Origin: Streptacidiphilus carbonis
GTDB lineage: Bacteria > Actinomycetota > Actinomycetes > Streptomycetales > Streptomycetaceae
Direction of reading: 5' to 3'
DNA length: 64,000 nucleotides
Assembly: GCF_000787775.1 (NCBI RefSeq)
Contig: NZ_BBPM01000016.1
Span: 62,001-126,000 of the forward strand
Below are positions 10,624 through 33,412 of the stretch, piece after piece. Under the pieces are notes generated by a model that was not told the origin of the DNA, made no database searches, and worked only from the letters and a program-made list of their open reading frames with translations. The stretch's first letter is position 1, and each line of letters begins with the position of its first letter. The position numbers and the translations under genes are program-made.

Positions 10624-12225
10624 ATGGCTCTCGGGAAACACCCCCTTCGCGTTGTCGGCGTACTTCGATTGAGTAACGAGACGGACGAGTCGACGTCCAT
10701 CGAGCGACAGCGCGCCCTCGTCAAGAACTGGGCCCAGGCCACCGGGAACGTGATGGTCGGCTGGTCGGAGGACGTGGACGTGTCCGGCGGCATCCGACCA
10801 TTCGCCCGCCCCGAGCTCGGCCCGTGGCTGGCCACCCCGGAGCGGTTCGACGCCCTAGTCGTATGGAAGCTCGACCGCCTCACCCGACGCGCCGCCCACT
10901 TCGTCGAGCTGCGGGACTGGGCCGAAGAGCACGGCATCGCCATCGTCAGCGTGACCGAGGGCTTCGACCTCAGCACCGCCATGGGCAAGATGTTCGCCAC
11001 GATCATCGCCGCGTTCGCCGAGGGCGAGCTGGAGACCATCCGGGAGCGCACCCGCGGCTCCCATGCCAGGCTCCGTCAGATCGGCCGCTACGCGGGCGCT
11101 CCGTGGCCCATGGGCTACCGCGCAGTGGATCTGCCCACCGGGGGCAAGACGCTCGTCCCAGAGCCCGAATACGCCGAGATCCTGCGCGGCATCATCCGCG
11201 ACGTCACCGAGGGCGTCTCCACCGCCGAGATCGCCCGGCGCCTCAACGCCGCGGGAGTGCTCACCTGGGGCGACAAGCGCGCGGAGCTGCGTGGTGCGGA
11301 GCCTGCGGAGACGCGTCAGCGGTGGACTGCGGACGTCGTGCAGCAGATCGTGCGGAACCCGGTCTGCGCCGGCTACCGGACCGAGAAGACCAAGGCGGAG
11401 GACGGCCGCTTCCTCCGGGCAGCGAAGATCGTCTATGACGAGGACGGCAACCCCGTGATGGCCACCACCACGCCGGTGGTGACGCCGTCGGAGTGGATGA
11501 AGGCCAGGACGGCGATGATGGCCCGCGGCACCACGGTGGAGCGTGCGGCCCGAGCTGAGTCGATGCTGCAGGGCGTCGCCAAGTGCGGCAGCTGCGGTAC
11601 CAACTTGTACCAGCATCGGCAGACCAAGAAGCTCAAGAGCGGGACCCGCGAGTACTGCTACTACCGCTGCCAGGGCGAACGAAAGGGGCACGACTGCGCC
11701 AGCCCCGCCAACATCGACGTCGACTCGGCCGAGCGCGAGGTCGGCGCCGCCCTGCTGTTCATCCTCGGGCAGAGCGAGATCACCCGGCTCGACCATGATC
11801 CCGGCGAGGACTACAGCGCCGAGATCATGGAGGCGCGTCGGCGGCTCGACGAGTTGGAGGATGACTACCTGGTGGGCAAGTACGACTCCCCCGAGGGCAA
11901 GCGCCGGTACGAGCGGCTGCACGCCCGCGCCTGCGACCAGGTCGACCGGCTGCTCGCCCTGCCGGTACGCCGGGCTTCGACCCGGACCGTGGGCAGCGGG
12001 GAGACGTACGGGCAGCGCTGGGAGCGGTGCGACCGACTGGAGCGGCGCGCGTTCTTGCTGGAGCAGGAGTTCGCCGTCACGGTCCACGCTCCGGGCACGC
12101 TGGAGCATCCGGTGACCGGGGAACTCAACACGGCCCCCGCGGTCGTCCTGGAGGTCCCTGAGAGGCTTCGTGGGACCCCTGGGGCTCCCGTGTTCACCGT
12201 GCCGCCGGGCACTCGACTGGGATAG
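10624..12225 (+). CDS. Large serine integrase
   Basis: A 533-residue protein. The catalytic domain starts VVGVLRLSNETDESTSIERQ with nucleophile Ser17, followed by LDRLTRR and a FATIIAAFAEGELE helix (about residues 90-145). A recombinase domain follows, then a zinc ribbon (CGSCG near 321 with YYRC and CASP around 345-360), a coiled-coil segment and a C-terminal tail. Large serine integrases join attP and attB through a 2-bp staggered cut and need a separate directionality factor to excise. Its position next to attL and the reconstructed attP dyad make it the enzyme that inserted element C into ssb. Confidence 0.95.
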   Translation: MALGKHPLRVVGVLRLSNETDESTSIERQRALVKNWAQATGNVMVGWSEDVDVSGGIRPFARPELGPWLATPERFDALVVWKLDRLTRRAAHFVELRDWAEEHGIAIVSVTEGFDLSTAMGKMFATIIAAFAEGELETIRERTRGSHARLRQIGRYAGAPWPMGYRAVDLPTGGKTLVPEPEYAEILRGIIRDVTEGVSTAEIARRLNAAGVLTWGDKRAELRGAEPAETRQRWTADVVQQIVRNPVCAGYRTEKTKAEDGRFLRAAKIVYDEDGNPVMATTTPVVTPSEWMKARTAMMARGTTVERAARAESMLQGVAKCGSCGTNLYQHRQTKKLKSGTREYCYYRCQGERKGHDCASPANIDVDSAEREVGAALLFILGQSEITRLDHDPGEDYSAEIMEARRRLDELEDDYLVGKYDSPEGKRRYERLHARACDQVDRLLALPVRRASTRTVGSGETYGQRWERCDRLERRAFLLEQEFAVTVHAPGTLEHPVTGELNTAPAVVLEVPERLRGTPGAPVFTVPPGTRLG

Positions 12226-23586: not shown

Positions 23587-24585
23587 ATGTCAGCCGAACT
23601 GGTCCCCGCCTCCGTGCCGCTGCCCGCCACGGTCGACTCCACCGTCTCGGACAGCACCCGGGACCGGCTCGACCGCTCGGTGCCGGAGAATACCCGCCGC
23701 GCCTACGCCCGCCAGTGGAACATCTTCACCGACTGGTGCGGCTCGACCGGGCGCACCCCGATGCCGGCCACCGCGCACACCCTCGCGGAGTACGTCAGCC
23801 ACCTCGCCGACCTCGACCGCGCCCCCAGCACCATCGAGCAGGCCATCGCAGCGATCCGCACCGCCCACCGGACCGCCGGGCACCGCGGCCTGCCCGAGAC
23901 CGACGCCGCCCTGGCCGTACTGAAGGTCCACCGACGGGACCGGGCCGCCGCGGGCAAGCGGAAGCGGAAGGCTCCGCCGGTCACCCTCAAGCCGCTCCGG
24001 GCGATGATCGAGGCCACCGACCCGAAGACGCCGAAGGGGCTGCGGGATCGCGCCCTGATCGTGCTCGGCTTCGCGGCGATGGCCCGCCGCTCCGAGCTCG
24101 CCGCGCTGCAGATCGAGGACATCCGGTTCACCGACGACGGGCTCACCGTTCTGGTGCGGTCCAGCAAGACCGACCAGGACGCTGTCGGTGCCGAGGCCCA
24201 CATCCCGCACGGCGTCCACCCCGACACCGACCCCGTCCGCGTGGTCCGCGCCTGGCTCCAGGTCCTGGCGGAGCACGACGTCACCGCGGGTCCGCTGCTG
24301 CGCCGCATCAACCGCTGGGGCCAGCTGCAGCCCGGCGGGATGTCCGGGGCGGCCGTGAACGAGGCGGTGCAGCGGCTCGCCGAGGCCGCGGGCCTGGACG
24401 GCGCGGCGGACTTCACCGCGCACGGTCTGCGCGCCGGCGGTCCAACCGAGGCTGCGAAGGCCGGTCACCCGACCAGCTTCATCGCCGAGCACGGCCGCTG
24501 GTCCAAGACCAGCCCGCAGGTGCTGGAGTACATCCGGCCCGTCGAAAAATGGCGGGACAACCCGATGCGCGGCATCGGGCTGTGA
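23587..24585 (+). CDS. Cre-like tyrosine recombinase
   Basis: A 332-residue protein close in length to P1 Cre (343). Catalytic residues are R168 (ARRSEL), K194 (SSKTDQ), H279-x-x-R282 (HGLRAG), W305 (GRWSKTSP) and Y315 (LEYIRP). The Trp before the nucleophile and the YIR ending match Cre (GGWTN, NYIRN) rather than the His of XerC/D. The N-terminal domain shares the Cre feel of NTRRAYARQWNIFTDWC and GRTPMPA. Cre resolves phage-plasmid dimers at loxP. Here a serine integrase already handles integration, so a separate resolvase role is plausible. Confidence 0.88.
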   Translation: MSAELVPASVPLPATVDSTVSDSTRDRLDRSVPENTRRAYARQWNIFTDWCGSTGRTPMPATAHTLAEYVSHLADLDRAPSTIEQAIAAIRTAHRTAGHRGLPETDAALAVLKVHRRDRAAAGKRKRKAPPVTLKPLRAMIEATDPKTPKGLRDRALIVLGFAAMARRSELAALQIEDIRFTDDGLTVLVRSSKTDQDAVGAEAHIPHGVHPDTDPVRVVRAWLQVLAEHDVTAGPLLRRINRWGQLQPGGMSGAAVNEAVQRLAEAAGLDGAADFTAHGLRAGGPTEAAKAGHPTSFIAEHGRWSKTSPQVLEYIRPVEKWRDNPMRGIGL

Positions 24586-25965: not shown

Positions 25966-26736
25966 CTACAGCTGTGGCCGGTGGCCGTACTCGCTGACCC
26001 AGCGCGACCCGAGCAGCACGATGTCCGCGGTCTCCACCGGCCGCCCGTTGGCCTGGTCGTAGTACGTGCGCATGATGGCCATGACCGGTGCTGCGGGCGC
26101 GCAGCCGAGTTGCTGGGCCTCGGCCCGGGTAGCCGTGCGGGCGCGGACCTGCTCGACCGGCACGCCGACGTCGACGCCGACCACCGCCATCCGGTCGGCC
26201 ACACCGATACCGGCGTAGGGGCCGGCCTCCGGGAGCACGATCAGTGATCCGCCGGTGATGTCGAGCGGCTCCCAGCTCTCCGCGATCTGCACCGGCTCGC
26301 CGTTCGCCAGGTAGGTGTACCGGGTGTGCATGACGCCGTCGCCCACGGGGATCTCCAGGCGCGCGGCCACAGCCTCGCTGGCCCGGTCGGTGCCGGATTC
26401 GTGCTGCCAGCTGCCGACGACTCCCTGTTCGGCGAGCAGTTGGGCGACGGGTGAGCCCTGGCCGGCGCGGACGCGCTGACGGCGGAACATGACCGTCGGC
26501 GCTGCCTGGCTGCGGACGTAGTGGCCAGCTCCGGGGCGGGAGATGACGAGGCCCTCGTCGACGAGCAGCGCGTAGGCGCGCTGTCCGACGGTGCCGCTGT
26601 AGCCGAACTCGTCGGACAACTCGGTCAGCGAGGGGAGGCGCGCGCCCGCTTCGAGTGCGCCGGTAGCGATCCGGGTGCGGAGAGCGTCGGCGACCTGCAA
26701 ATACGGCGGTGTCGCCTCGGTGTCGGTCACATTCAC
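25966..26736 (-). CDS. GntR-family regulator (KorSA-like)
   Basis: A 256-residue protein. The N-terminal winged helix (YLQVADALRTRIATGALEAG, LPSLTELSDEFGYSGTVGQR) is classic GntR. The C-terminal 170 residues form a UTRA-type ligand domain (MHTRYTYLANGEPVQIAESW, VMAIMRTYYDQANGRPVETA). In pSAM2 a GntR protein, KorSA, represses excision and transfer. Position, size and divergent control region fit that role. AGGGAG lies before the ATG. The ligand is unknown. Confidence 0.88.
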   Translation of the reverse strand: MNVTDTEATPPYLQVADALRTRIATGALEAGARLPSLTELSDEFGYSGTVGQRAYALLVDEGLVISRPGAGHYVRSQAAPTVMFRRQRVRAGQGSPVAQLLAEQGVVGSWQHESGTDRASEAVAARLEIPVGDGVMHTRYTYLANGEPVQIAESWEPLDITGGSLIVLPEAGPYAGIGVADRMAVVGVDVGVPVEQVRARTATRAEAQQLGCAPAAPVMAIMRTYYDQANGRPVETADIVLLGSRWVSEYGHRPQL

Positions 26737-28930: not shown

Positions 28931-29208
28931 GGCCGTCGACACCATTCGGTTGCCCTGCCCGAGGTGGCCATCAGCCCGAGGGGCCCAGACCCTTGATTGC
29001 CTGACCAGGCAGGGGGAAGATGCTTGGTCCGGCCGGCGGGCCGGGGTCCGGGGCGACCTGGTGCTGAGCGGCCTCACGGTCGCCCCCAGGACCATTCGGC
29101 CCTGCGAGTCGTGACCCAGACGGTCACGGCCGGCCAGCACCCGAGGGGCACGCACTGGCGCGTACCCGTGCGACCCGGGCTGCGCGGCGGCACGAAGATC
29201 AGCGGGGA
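28931..29208. other. Intergenic, no gene seen
   Basis: GC-rich stretch between the last rightward gene and the repeat cluster beside traB. No convincing ORF, ribosome-binding site or promoter was found. Confidence 0.4.
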
Positions 29209-29371
29209 GGGAGGCGCAGCACCCCCGCCGCAGTAGCCGCTCCGGGCTGCTGGACGGTGCCGGATCACCCGCCTCCCTGCCTCCCTAAACAGCCATCTAT
29301 GCAGGTCAGCCCGAGGGAGGCGGCCCAGGGAGGCGGTGAGGGAGAACTCCCCGCCTCCCCGGCCGCCTCCC
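29209..29371. repeat. Cluster of 8-bp repeats beside traB (clt-like)
   Basis: GGGAGGCG occurs exactly three times rightward (29209, 29315, 29328) and three times inverted as CGCCTCCC (29270, 29352, 29364), plus a one-mismatch copy (29278). All lie within 165 bp directly downstream of the traB stop. Streptomyces TraB proteins recognise clustered 8-bp repeats (TRS) in a non-coding clt locus next to traB; this is the same layout with a different word. Confidence 0.72.
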
Positions 29372-29375
29372 CGGA

Positions 29376-31532
29376 TCAAAACTCGTCGGAGTCGCCCTCC
29401 GCGGCCCGCTCGGCAAGGGCTTCCAAGACCCGATCCCGGCTGACGACCATGTTGCCGTTGGACTTGTACGGCGCCGCCCCGAACGGCTCCAGTGCCTGCT
29501 TGAGATCGGATGCGGTCCAGCTGCGGTACTCGGCCGGGTTGAGGACGGTCAGCCGCTGGCGGATGTCGTCGGTGCCGACGCGGGCCTCGTCGCCGATCAC
29601 AGTGGCGATGTCGGCCAGGTGGTCGACCGGCGCGGCCGGCTCGACGCCGCGGGTGGTGACGCCGGAGCGCAGGGCCTTGGCGCGGTCGGTGATCTGCATG
29701 GCCTCCTCGTCGTTGACGTAGTGCGTGCGCACGTTCAGCGACACCTGGCCGGGCGGGAGCTGCACGCCGTCGCCGGCGACGACCAGCTGTCCCTTGTCCA
29801 GGCCCTGCCGCAGCTTGTGCGGCGCAGCACCCGCCTCGACCGGGGACTCGCCGAGCGCCATCTTGGCCTGCGACTCCGTGCCCAGGACCAGCGCGGCCCG
29901 GATGTGGTTGCCCTCGCGCGAACGCTTGGGCAGGTTCTGGTCGGTCGGGTCCTGGGTGCCCTCCCAGATCGTGACGTTCACCGCCCGCCCCTGGTCGTGG
30001 ATGCCCTTCACGGCCTGGAAGTAGCGGCTGAGGGCCTTGGCGCCGCCGTAGGGCCGCTTGTCCACGCCGATGGCGCCGGAGCCGTAGGCGACCTGGGCCT
30101 CGTCGACGATGACGACCAGGGGCGGGAACACGGTGCCCTTGGGTGCCATCAGGCGGCGCTGCTGCTCGGCGAACACGGCCTCGACCATCTCGGTCACGGC
30201 GATGACGTGCTCGTCGGTCGGGCCCTCGATCAGGACCGAGGCCAGGCCCTCGAACATCTCCCAGTCCCCAACGCCCTTGAGGTCCCCGATGCGGAAGTCG
30301 ACGGTGGGGTCGAGGGCGAGCCACAGCGCCAGGGCCCGCAGGCTGGCGGTCTTGCCCTGGTTGGACAGGCCGGTCACCAGCACGTGTTTCTGGAACAGGC
30401 TGAGGCTGGCGGCGTCGCCACGCAGGTCCAGGCCCCAGGGTGCGCGGCCTGTCTTGTAGCTGGCGGTCATGGTGGGGTCGGTGACCAGCGGCGAGGCGGG
30501 CACGGGCTCGTCCAGGGCGCCACTGTCCGCGATCCACAGACGCACGGTGCGGGCGGCAGGGGCGACGCTGATGTACAGCTCATGCTCGTGGCGGCCCATG
30601 TTCTCCGCCAGCTTCCGGCGCCGGTTCATGACGTCCTCGGTCGACGAGCCGGTGGGCAGATGGACGTCGACCTCGACCCCGCAGCCGGCCATGGTGATCG
30701 GGCCGAGCATCGCGGCCCCGGCGTCGCCCATCTCCTTGATGGAGGTGCGCAGCGGGGCGACGCCCAGGTCGCGCAGGGCGACGACGACGATCGACGGGGT
30801 GATCGGCGCGCCCTCATTGCTGAGCTTGCCGCCGGGCAGCATCCACGCCGGAGCCGCGCCGTGCTTACGGCCGACCGCCCACAGCGCCGCCAGGGCGACG
30901 AACGGGACCGCGGTCAGGGTCGGGTCCCACAGGAACGCGACGACGGCGCAGACCCACGCCACGGTGTCGACGGCGCCGGTGACCGGGACCAGGACGTCGG
31001 CGATCTGGTGCTCGGCAATCGCCATGACGATGCCGATGACGAGGAGCGTGCCGACGCCCAGGACGGTCGCGATGGCGGCGCCGCGGGCGACGTGGATCGG
31101 TGCGGCGAGCAGGTCCATGCGGCGCCGGTGGCGGGCGGCGCGGAACGAGGCCCCGCGCGCTTCCCACTCCTGCGCGGCCTCGACGTTGCCGACGGCCTCC
31201 GCCGCGCGGATCATCCGCTCGTACCGGGCCGCTGTACGCCCGTCCCAGGCCCGGCGGCCGGCGACCAGTCCGCCGGCGACCACGAACGAGGGGTGACGGA
31301 CTAGGAAGCGGCCGAGCGCGGCCGTGCGCTCATGGGTGGCAGCCACCCGCACGGCACGGGTGCTACGCCGAACCAGCCCCGGGCGCCCCGGCGGAGCGCT
31401 GATGGCCTCGGCGGCCAGCTGCTCGGCGCCGGTGCTGATGACGGTGCCCTCGATGGGCTGGCGCGGCCCGGGGACCGTCTTGTCGAGCCGGACGGGCTGC
31501 GGGTGCCCGTTGACCCTGTCGGTGATGGCCAT
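29376..31532 (-). CDS. traB: TraB/FtsK-type DNA translocase
   Basis: A 718-residue protein. Two membrane segments (about 149-172 and 188-222), then an FtsK/SpoIIIE motor with Walker A GLSNQGKT (388-395) and Walker B VVIVDEAQ (473-480), and a C-terminal winged-helix-like domain (about 640-718) suited to reading DNA repeats. TraB hexamers move double-stranded plasmid DNA between mycelial compartments without a relaxase. The start chosen overlaps the stop of the upstream membrane-protein gene (ATGA). Candidate recognition repeats lie just past its stop codon. Confidence 0.9.
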   Translation of the reverse strand: MAITDRVNGHPQPVRLDKTVPGPRQPIEGTVISTGAEQLAAEAISAPPGRPGLVRRSTRAVRVAATHERTAALGRFLVRHPSFVVAGGLVAGRRAWDGRTAARYERMIRAAEAVGNVEAAQEWEARGASFRAARHRRRMDLLAAPIHVARGAAIATVLGVGTLLVIGIVMAIAEHQIADVLVPVTGAVDTVAWVCAVVAFLWDPTLTAVPFVALAALWAVGRKHGAAPAWMLPGGKLSNEGAPITPSIVVVALRDLGVAPLRTSIKEMGDAGAAMLGPITMAGCGVEVDVHLPTGSSTEDVMNRRRKLAENMGRHEHELYISVAPAARTVRLWIADSGALDEPVPASPLVTDPTMTASYKTGRAPWGLDLRGDAASLSLFQKHVLVTGLSNQGKTASLRALALWLALDPTVDFRIGDLKGVGDWEMFEGLASVLIEGPTDEHVIAVTEMVEAVFAEQQRRLMAPKGTVFPPLVVIVDEAQVAYGSGAIGVDKRPYGGAKALSRYFQAVKGIHDQGRAVNVTIWEGTQDPTDQNLPKRSREGNHIRAALVLGTESQAKMALGESPVEAGAAPHKLRQGLDKGQLVVAGDGVQLPPGQVSLNVRTHYVNDEEAMQITDRAKALRSGVTTRGVEPAAPVDHLADIATVIGDEARVGTDDIRQRLTVLNPAEYRSWTASDLKQALEPFGAAPYKSNGNMVVSRDRVLEALAERAAEGDSDEF

Positions 31533-31735
31533 CAGCGGGACCTGACCTGTGCGGTCGGGTGCTTGGCCCGCCAGTAGAGGGCGGCGACCAGCAGGAGCAG
31601 GACGGCGCCCGGCTGGGCGACGATCCACGGCACCAGCACGGTGGTCGCGGGGACCACGACGGCGCGCAGCTGGTAGCAGAGGAGGAGCAGCAGGCCGAGC
31701 AGGAGCAGGGTCGAGGGGCGGGCGGTGCGGAGCAT
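31532..31735 (-). CDS. Small membrane protein coupled to TraB
   Basis: A 67-residue protein with two hydrophobic segments (STLLLLGLLLLLCYQL and VAQPGAVLLLLVAALYW). GGAGGT lies 5 bases before the ATG, and its stop overlaps the TraB start. Spread (Spd) proteins of Streptomyces plasmids are often small membrane proteins encoded beside tra; that role is an inference. Confidence 0.74.
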   Translation of the reverse strand: MLRTARPSTLLLLGLLLLLCYQLRAVVVPATTVLVPWIVAQPGAVLLLLVAALYWRAKHPTAQVRSR

Positions 31736-32020: not shown

Positions 32021-33412
32021 TCACAGGTATCCCTCGGTTCCGGCCTGGGCTTCGGCTTCCTGGGCCTGCTTGGCGGCACGGGAAAGGACGGTGCGGATGT
32101 AGGCGGTATCCACGGCGAGGCCGCTCTGAGCCAGGTGCAGGGCGATGTCGGCGGGCGTCGCCTCGGGGTGAAGCATCGATGATGCGGCGAGGATCGCGGC
32201 CGTCTTCGTCGCCGGGAGCGCGGCATCGTCCGACTCCGTGAGCTGGGGCGCATCATCAGGCGCATCACCGTGCATCACAGGCACCGGCCCCACCTGACCA
32301 GTCATGGCGGCGAGGTACTGGGCGACGTCGCCGGCGAGGTCGAACCACTCCGTGGCGCCAACCCGCTGCTCGGCGAAACGCAGGTGGAGATCCCGCTCCG
32401 TGCGCGCGTTGCCGTGGACGACCAGGAGCACGTCCTCCATACGCAGGCACAGGGTGTCGATGCGCCGCTTGAGGTTCTGCGACGTGCCGATCTTGACCCG
32501 GTCGCCGTTCTGCACGAAGTACACGATCGGCGGGTGCGCCGAGCCCAGGAGCGCAGCCACGTCGGCGACCCGGACCCCTGGCGTTCCCGCCAGCTCCCCG
32601 GTGGGCTGACGCCGCGACGCCTTGCGCTTCTGCTCCCTGTCGAGCGCGGCATGGACGACCTTGCCGAAGCTCTCCCGGGTGGCGTCGAGTTCCCGACGCA
32701 GCTGGGCACTGGTCCGCGAATCGGCCTGCAGCGGCTCACCCTTGGCGCCGACCGCGACGTGCTGCCCTGCGGCGGTGCCGACGCCCGGAGTACCGCGGCG
32801 GCTGGCTTCCATTGCGAGCAGCTGCGCGACGGCGTTGTCCTCGGTGCGCTGGACCTGTCGGCGGGCGGAGGCGACGGCGAGCTTCGCGGATGCCTCGGAC
32901 AGGGTGATCTCGATCCACTGCCGGTCGGCTGCGGTGAGGGTGGGCTCGGTGACCTTCGCGGACACCCACCACAGCAGCTTGGCCAGGATGGAGACGGTGG
33001 CCCCGACGCAGGCGAGTGCGAGAGACCGCGACCGCATCCCTTCAACGAACAGGGCCGTCACGGTGACGGCGAGCAGGACCCACGAAAGCCTGTCTGCGAC
33101 GCGTCGCCGGTCCGGCCGGTGGCGTGCGATGAACGCCAGCCCGAGGGCGGTGAGCCACGACAGGTCGAACAGGGAGGCGGCGAGGTAGGACACCCAGGTC
33201 GCGCCCAGGAGAGCGGCGATGCTGGTCGTACTCCAGATCACGGAGATCAGGGTGAGGGCCAGGACGATGCCGTGGACGCCCCGGACGACGATGGCGTCCC
33301 AGTCCTTGGGGGCCACGGGGACCAGGGTTTCCCTTGGGATGTCGACCATGACGGTGGTGCCGTCGATGGTGTGCGGCGTCCTGATGTACTCGGTGACGCT
33401 TTTGAACTTCAC
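32021..33412 (-). CDS. SpdB/DUF2637-like membrane protein fused to a GIY-YIG-type domain
   Basis: A 463-residue protein. Four membrane segments lie within residues 41-150 (VHGIVLALTLISVIW, ATWVSYLAASLF, LSWVLLAVTVTALFV, LALACVGATVSIL), a plan seen in SpdB/DUF2637 proteins of Streptomyces elements. A coiled linker leads to a GIY-YIG-like domain at about 296-360 (VYFVQNGDRVKIGTSQNLKR, then TERDLHLRFAEQRVGATEWF), with R316 and E339 as likely key residues. The last 100 residues are helical. A membrane-anchored DNA-binding or nicking role in transfer is inferred. Confidence 0.8.
   Translation of the reverse strand: MKFKSVTEYIRTPHTIDGTTVMVDIPRETLVPVAPKDWDAIVVRGVHGIVLALTLISVIWSTTSIAALLGATWVSYLAASLFDLSWLTALGLAFIARHRPDRRRVADRLSWVLLAVTVTALFVEGMRSRSLALACVGATVSILAKLLWWVSAKVTEPTLTAADRQWIEITLSEASAKLAVASARRQVQRTEDNAVAQLLAMEASRRGTPGVGTAAGQHVAVGAKGEPLQADSRTSAQLRRELDATRESFGKVVHAALDREQKRKASRRQPTGELAGTPGVRVADVAALLGSAHPPIVYFVQNGDRVKIGTSQNLKRRIDTLCLRMEDVLLVVHGNARTERDLHLRFAEQRVGATEWFDLAGDVAQYLAAMTGQVGPVPVMHGDAPDDAPQLTESDDAALPATKTAAILAASSMLHPEATPADIALHLAQSGLAVDTAYIRTVLSRAAKQAQEAEAQAGTEGYL

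Follow-up and report, generated by a model that had tools for sequence, protein, structure and literature searches.

Why should a short word be repeated, in both orientations, just behind the gene of a DNA translocase? The question arises in a window of 64,000 nucleotides from Streptacidiphilus carbonis (contig NZ_BBPM01000016.1, positions 62,001 to 126,000; all coordinates below are those of the window). Here seven GGGAGGC[GA] words in both orientations, plus half-words, form an array (29203-29371) in the non-coding DNA between two convergent genes, one of which is traB, and the slots that they occupy are conserved in relatives. We consider it very likely that this candidate array is the clt of a serine-integrase element of about 25.75 kb and that it is read by the C-terminal gamma domain of TraB, with gamma and array forming one specificity cassette. 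It very probably marks which DNA is transferred between bacteria.

The earlier note on this DNA had reported six exact copies of GGGAGGCG, three per orientation, and one near copy in the non-coding DNA after the TraB stop, and the positions of all seven (29209-29371) were confirmed. The traB stop (TGA, minus strand) lies at 29376-29378 and the array begins four bases past it. Slots 1 (29364-29371, +4 from the stop) and 2 (29352-29359, +16) hold GGGAGGCG on the minus strand, which is that of traB. Slots 3 and 4 are the two facing half-words of a central palindrome, GGGAGAACTCCC (29340-29351), which could be aligned in 29 loci. The word then turns to the plus strand, opposite to traB, in slots 5 (29328-29335) and 6 (29315-29322). 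Slot 7 is the near copy, GGGAGGCA on the minus strand (TGCCTCCC on the plus strand; 29278-29285, +90), and is followed by an exact copy on the same strand in slot 8 (29270-29277, +98). The last slot holds GGGAGGCG on the plus strand (29209-29216), with an overlapping GGGGAG half-word at 29203-29208. The palindrome and this half-word were absent from the earlier note, as were the palindromic layout, the other word classes and the cassette behaviour described below.

The word itself is not rare; only its clustering is unusual. There are 18 copies of GGGAGGCG in the window, against 11.5 ± 3.5 in shuffled sequences, and 1034 sites (492 + 542) in the 8.457-Mb genome. This genome-wide count, proposed in the earlier note, gives 0.021 expected copies per 170 bp where six are present, i.e. 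the random frequency does not match the density of the array. The Poisson probability of six or more copies in 170 bp is 1e-13, and about 1e-6 after multiplying by all genome positions. The densest 170 bp in the rest of the window holds two copies. Pairs of GGGAGGC within 30 bp occur at 26 places in the genome, against 16 for a control with the reversed pattern; three of the 26 are inside the array and one is in an array beside the genome's second traB of the same class. Five regions around other GGGAGGC pairs (L101-L104 and L108) contained no orphan arrays: they had at most three GGGAGG per 200 bp and lacked traB.

Both traB and the array belong to an integrated element (10593-36344) that splits an ssb-like gene; this gene was identified by visual inspection of its translation rather than by profile. 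A related genome (G010) has the two outer sequences, up to 10592 and from 36345, joined directly to each other within the ssb-like gene, hence the size of about 25.75 kb. A large serine recombinase is encoded at the left end (10624-12225, plus strand; PF00239, PF07508 and PF13408), and a second recombinase, of the tyrosine type, lies inside the element (23587-24585). A GntR/UTRA regulator (25966-26736, minus strand) occupies a KorA-like position and may have the corresponding role. The gene upstream of traB (32021-33412, minus strand) encodes a GIY-YIG-type T5orf172/MUG113 domain, and a role as spread protein would be a guess. The presence of an integrase and traB on one integrated chromosomal element is shared with AICEs such as pSAM2. 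Unlike these, the element has a serine integrase in an ssb-like gene, and no replication initiator (rep) gene or replicase was recognised in the subset of its ORFs that was scanned.

The product of traB (29376-31628, minus strand; P0001) is an FtsK/SpoIIIE-like translocase of 750 residues in its longest frame, and its true start is probably the Met of MAITDRV. The FtsK-like motor domain PF01580 was found in 21 of 22 members of the TraB family (best match 1e-10). The TraB of the window itself scored 17.9 bits against this profile, under the Pfam cut-off of 24, and matched the FtsK/SpoIIIE-like family phrog_1358 of PHROG with an E value of 1.5e-13. Its gamma domain (29379-29642, minus strand; residues about 663-750) is a predicted winged helix. 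Since the prediction for the full-length protein was poor (mean pLDDT 59), we judged the fold from an AlphaFold2 model of the last 88 residues (mean pLDDT 88), which shows the order helix-strand-helix-helix-hairpin. In the numbering of the full model, where the same elements appear, the helix spans residues 706-716, the wing strands 721-723 and 726-730, and the wing tip is N724. The best Foldseek matches of the gamma model include winged-helix proteins, e.g. SSV1 F-93 and forkhead domains, and VIA-align gave Z scores of up to 6.6. These fold searches are weak on their own, because the top VIA-align row is an EF-hand and no Foldseek match reached E ≤ 0.001; the FtsK gamma structure was absent among the 50 fold matches listed. 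Searches of solved structures gave no match with the single TraB protein and no convincing match with a gamma profile, while a profile of the whole protein matched FtsK (2ius) weakly (E 0.0036).

To place the array in a comparative context, we gathered TraB relatives from the genus (10 of 14 genomes), GTDB contigs (12 loci), IMG/VR and further relatives (18 of 51 genomes); none was found among phage records. We removed duplicates (L001, L023, L032, L038, L042 and L079), a locus at a contig end (L071), one with a frame broken early (L035) and a fragment (L015). This left 77 distinct flanks of 205 bp, whose word counts were judged against 100 shuffles. A 6-mer occurs five times or more in 62 of them, and among 2139 random 205-bp windows drawn from these loci 209 have one; the other 15 flanks lack such a 6-mer. 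Comparison between flanks assigned a word to 73 of the 77. Class A, [AG]GGGAG(GC), accounts for 44 flanks, class B, AGTGA[CG], for 12, class C, GGTG[AG]G, for six, class D, GTTAGG, for four and class E, GCTAG, for seven, and the remaining four (L066, L068, L072 and L073) were left unclassed. The GCTAG-type words follow the traB of another TraB family, with five to nine copies in L008, L014, L018, L019 and L085 and three in L017 and L084. Two members of this family, L017 and L019, are encoded in the window's own genome.

The positions of the words are conserved as well. Relatives with 56-66% identical TraB have words at about +1, +13, 38 (inverted), 52 (inverted), 86, 94 and 156 (inverted) from the stop. 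An alignment of 29 flanks revealed a plan common to classes A, B and C. It opens with a pair of words on the traB strand, followed by a small palindrome and a pair of inverted words; after a spacer come two words in forward orientation, and a second spacer, variable and about 55 bp long, separates these from an inverted word near +156. In the 44 class A loci the forward words concentrate in two intervals, 0-30 and 80-100, and the inverted ones in 20-70 and 150-170; 190 words are on the strand of traB and 164 on its complement. In class B, AGTGA replaces AGGGA at nearly all slots, including the palindrome, while the stretches between slots remain alike. Such a change of nearly all slots together is unlike the independent drift of single copies and therefore calls for one reader of all copies. 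Applied to pJV1 as a positive control, this de novo counting of repeats recovered the genetically proven clt word of the plasmid, CCGCACA, in nine copies at +5 to +122 after traB, all on one strand. The repeat word of pSVH1 is GACCCGGA, and a DNA search with four copies of it led nowhere. In pIJ101, traB is followed by GC-rich triplet-like words and by nothing comparable to the array; the clt of this plasmid is described in the accessible text of PMC3583192 as lying by korB.

If the gamma domain reads the array, the word should follow gamma rather than the motor. The earlier note had suggested comparing the repeats beside traB homologues, and this comparison went in favour of gamma. In partial Mantel tests on 74 loci (rank correlation), the association of gamma with the word given the motor was 0.495, and none of 999 permutations was as high, whereas that of the motor with the word given gamma was -0.072, with 902 of 999 permutations as high. 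Similarly, the minimum number of word changes (71 rows) was 16 on the motor tree and eight on the gamma tree, against about 27 after shuffling, and nine on a gamma tree built without the helix and wing columns. Distant translocases can share a word: L006 and L012 (about 33% identical to the TraB of the window) and L082 and L087 (30%) have class A words, and L086 (35%) has class B words. Unrelated repeats beside homologous TraB proteins, which the earlier note regarded as a refutation, do occur, yet chiefly where the C-terminal domain also differs. This supports the idea of a domain-specific word instead of refuting it.

Loci of different class with otherwise similar sequences show how word and gamma change. 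L041 (class A) and L037 (class B) are mostly 72-95% identical up to about -200 bp, 42-60% identical from -160 to +155, and mostly 77-90% identical beyond, or about 80-90% overall on the two sides of the dip. The dip spans the recognition helix, the wing and the array only. In a control pair of the same class, L024 and L037, there is no dip (70-92% over the same interval). When L051 (class A) is compared with L057 and L059 (class B), the dip has the same left edge, and on the right the identity recovers in part. Such a pattern could result from exchange by recombination or from very fast joint change in place; both are possible and we favour exchange. The comparison of relatives suggests that the word and the DNA-reading domain of TraB change together and move as one exchangeable unit. 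Two loci, L034 and L045, have mixed class A and B words in the first 185 bp after traB, with wings (YDGYPVV) as in class B and a class A helix, and are possibly intermediates. Four others (L061, L070, L080 and L083) are scattered on the motor tree and have in common a gamma type, mostly GVKVPSTGN-like, and GTTAGG words.

Can single residues of gamma be matched with single bases of the word? Of the 18 loci that have T at base 3, 16 have Gly as the first helix residue, 706, and of the 44 with G none does, and the wing-tip residue, 724, varies with base 1: the ratio of A-first to G-first words is 230/31 for Asp, 3/32 for Gln and 47/47 for Asn, all these being counts that take no account of kinship and that come from the same alignment from which the rules were read. 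The exceptions to the Gly rule are L081 and L086. In kinship-independent pairs on well supported branches, the pairing of Gly-706 with T was seen in six pairs, contradicted in none and without difference in two (p = 0.031), and that of residue 724 with base 1 showed a trend that was not significant (median p = 0.125). We then used 21 new TraBs as a hold-out, leaving out the truncated L163 (n = 20). G at base 3 was predicted for all 20, of which 19 are class A and one (L182) has another word, an outcome that covers the G half of the rule only, as the hold-out had no Gly-706 newcomer. A at base 1 was predicted for the 11 Asp loci and was right in 11 of 11; the gamma domains of these loci closely resemble older ones (identity of 0.71-0.79 in the 10 for which it was measured). 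Three newcomers with His-724 (L159, L160 and L175) have G-first words in 9 of 11, 8 of 8 and 8 of 9 cases (25 of 28), a pairing made after the fact since no His rule existed before the hold-out. The unforeseen word of L182 is GATGGA/CTGATGG, in seven copies after traB, and its gamma has an unusual long wing. TraB conjugation may have a readable and exchangeable code, in which gamma and array are a swappable cassette, residue 706 sets base 3 (T for Gly, otherwise G) and residue 724 sets base 1 (A for Asp, Glu or Lys; G for Gln, Thr or His). We regard the chances of this full code as evenly balanced.

It is important to consider that the array might have another function, or none. Inverted words can pair, and the array could be an RNA or DNA hairpin without any protein reader, e.g. 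a terminator of traB transcription between the convergent genes that flank it. On the traB strand, the array has a predicted folding energy of -115.6 kcal/mol (z = -4.67 relative to shuffled sequences), and the first 65 nt after the traB stop (29305-29371) are one long stem, or inverted repeat, with a very stable predicted fold. When the non-word bases of the first 70 nt were shuffled in 62 relatives, the real sequences had a mean z of -1.37 and 35% were below -2. However, in the arrays of L041, L063, L048 and L022 shuffling the spacers left the predicted fold as stable as before or made it more so. Pairing requires no word common to copies on the same strand, yet all slots share one, and the word tracks gamma after controlling for the motor. 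No U-tract terminator was found at the array, which has little weight in actinobacteria, and Rfam gave no match at the gathering score (the 14 weak matches listed are mostly microRNA models). We thus find it unlikely that a hairpin accounts for the array, although a terminator or structural role may share its site.

We give still less credence to a role of the words as iterons or operators of a different protein of the element (Rep or a KorA-like regulator), with gamma linked to them by hitch-hiking, and consider it quite improbable. Gamma and array adjoin, so recombination moves both, and linkage alone would make them travel together. The same kind of word cluster also occurs in contigs without traB, such as phage L121. 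Among 28 IMG/VR loci with the 16-mer AGGGAGGCAGGGAGGC, three of the 15 clusters of at least six words had no recognised traB, and one of them is a phage contig. A class B 16-mer was found in 15 loci: the four beside traB have seven or eight words, and six words were counted in one further locus, which is a plain tandem repeat. Clusters of AGGGAGG(C) without traB were seen in L121, which has an apparent phage terminase and portal region, L127 and L131, and are perhaps unrelated iterons. Against a different reader in the element, the scanned ORFs include no recognised rep gene, a word that changes in concert at nearly all slots calls for a reader that has changed as well, and TraB branches as distant as L006/L012 and L082/L087 use the word of the window. 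Another protein is also less likely because the word tracks particular residues of gamma. Finally, a GC-rich purine word could pile up by chance in GC-rich DNA, given that it is common in the genome and not significantly rare in the window. The density of the array, six words where 0.021 are expected, and the conservation of its slots across species make this extremely improbable, and we rejected a chance origin.

Reading of the array by gamma would resemble a known process. KOPS and SRS are short GGG-rich words read by the winged-helix gamma of FtsK and SpoIIIE, pumps of double-stranded DNA, and the array likewise combines short GGG-rich words with the predicted winged-helix gamma of such a pump. 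KOPS are dispersed and oriented along the chromosome, whereas the words of the array are clustered and point in both directions, with no uniform orientation in class A (190 against 164 in 44 loci). A layout with words in both directions suggests that loading lacks the single polarity seen with KOPS. The closest parallels are the clt of pWTY27 and pJV1 and the repeats of pSVH1, which in the accessible text of PMC3583192 are, like the array, clusters of 7- to 9-bp repeats that begin where a tra gene ends, the product of this gene being FtsK-like, a translocase with a winged helix at its C terminus. There, the proven clt of pWTY27 is given as 16 bp of traA together with the following 159 bp, the clt words as TGACACC (pWTY27) and CCGCACA[CG][CG] (pJV1), and the TraB of pSVH1 as forming a hexameric ring and reading 8-bp repeats with helix alpha3 of its winged helix (PMC3583192). 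The array differs from the nine one-strand copies of pJV1 in its word, its two orientations, its conserved layout and its central palindrome. The clt of pWTY27 and pJV1 were proven experimentally, whereas the role of the array is predicted from sequence. At the level of sequence, both suggestions of the earlier note hold: a likely clt, given the position shared with the clt of pWTY27 and the recovery of the pJV1 control, and a possible new TraB specificity, given a word that differs from the published ones.

These parallels lead to the following model. The winged-helix gamma of the adjacent TraB would directly bind [AG]GGGAGGC, with residues 706 and 724 setting bases of the word, presumably through direct contacts. 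On the excised circle, the many words in their fixed two-sided layout would serve to load TraB hexamers or to assemble them, and the loaded hexamers would pump double-stranded DNA into the recipient. The array would be needed in cis for transfer. The comparison of relatives shows the cluster and its conservation, the concerted word changes, the tie to gamma rather than to the motor, and the cassette: the word at nearly all slots matches the gamma present, and cassettes would pass between translocases that otherwise resemble each other.

The concept of clt and of TraB recognition repeats is already known. In the open literature, most subscription papers being outside this scope, we found no paper with GGGAGGC in a clt or TraB context and, by titles and the starts of abstracts, no survey of clt words against gamma domains. 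The word, the layout, the cassette and the residue pattern appear to be new. If the full code holds, the sequence of a TraB could tell us which plasmids, AICEs and chromosomal sites are open to transfer by it, and cross-mobilisation would become predictable between elements of the same cell with a common word. The residue-to-base pattern is testable and would help explain how co-resident elements avoid or share transfer machinery. The tags would also help locate chromosomal sites where Streptomyces-type gene exchange may start.

Many TraB elements in IMG/VR (L032-L074) are filed as viral contigs, including that of the window (a 98.7-kb contig). A plasmid of 13.5 kb from Streptomyces sp. NBC_00859 (L091) is of class A. 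Another locus (L093, NZ_CP070247.1, 2501-3000), on a 265-kb linear plasmid, has only a gamma-like remnant of traB together with a class A array of seven core words, and is either a decayed traB or a tag usable in trans.
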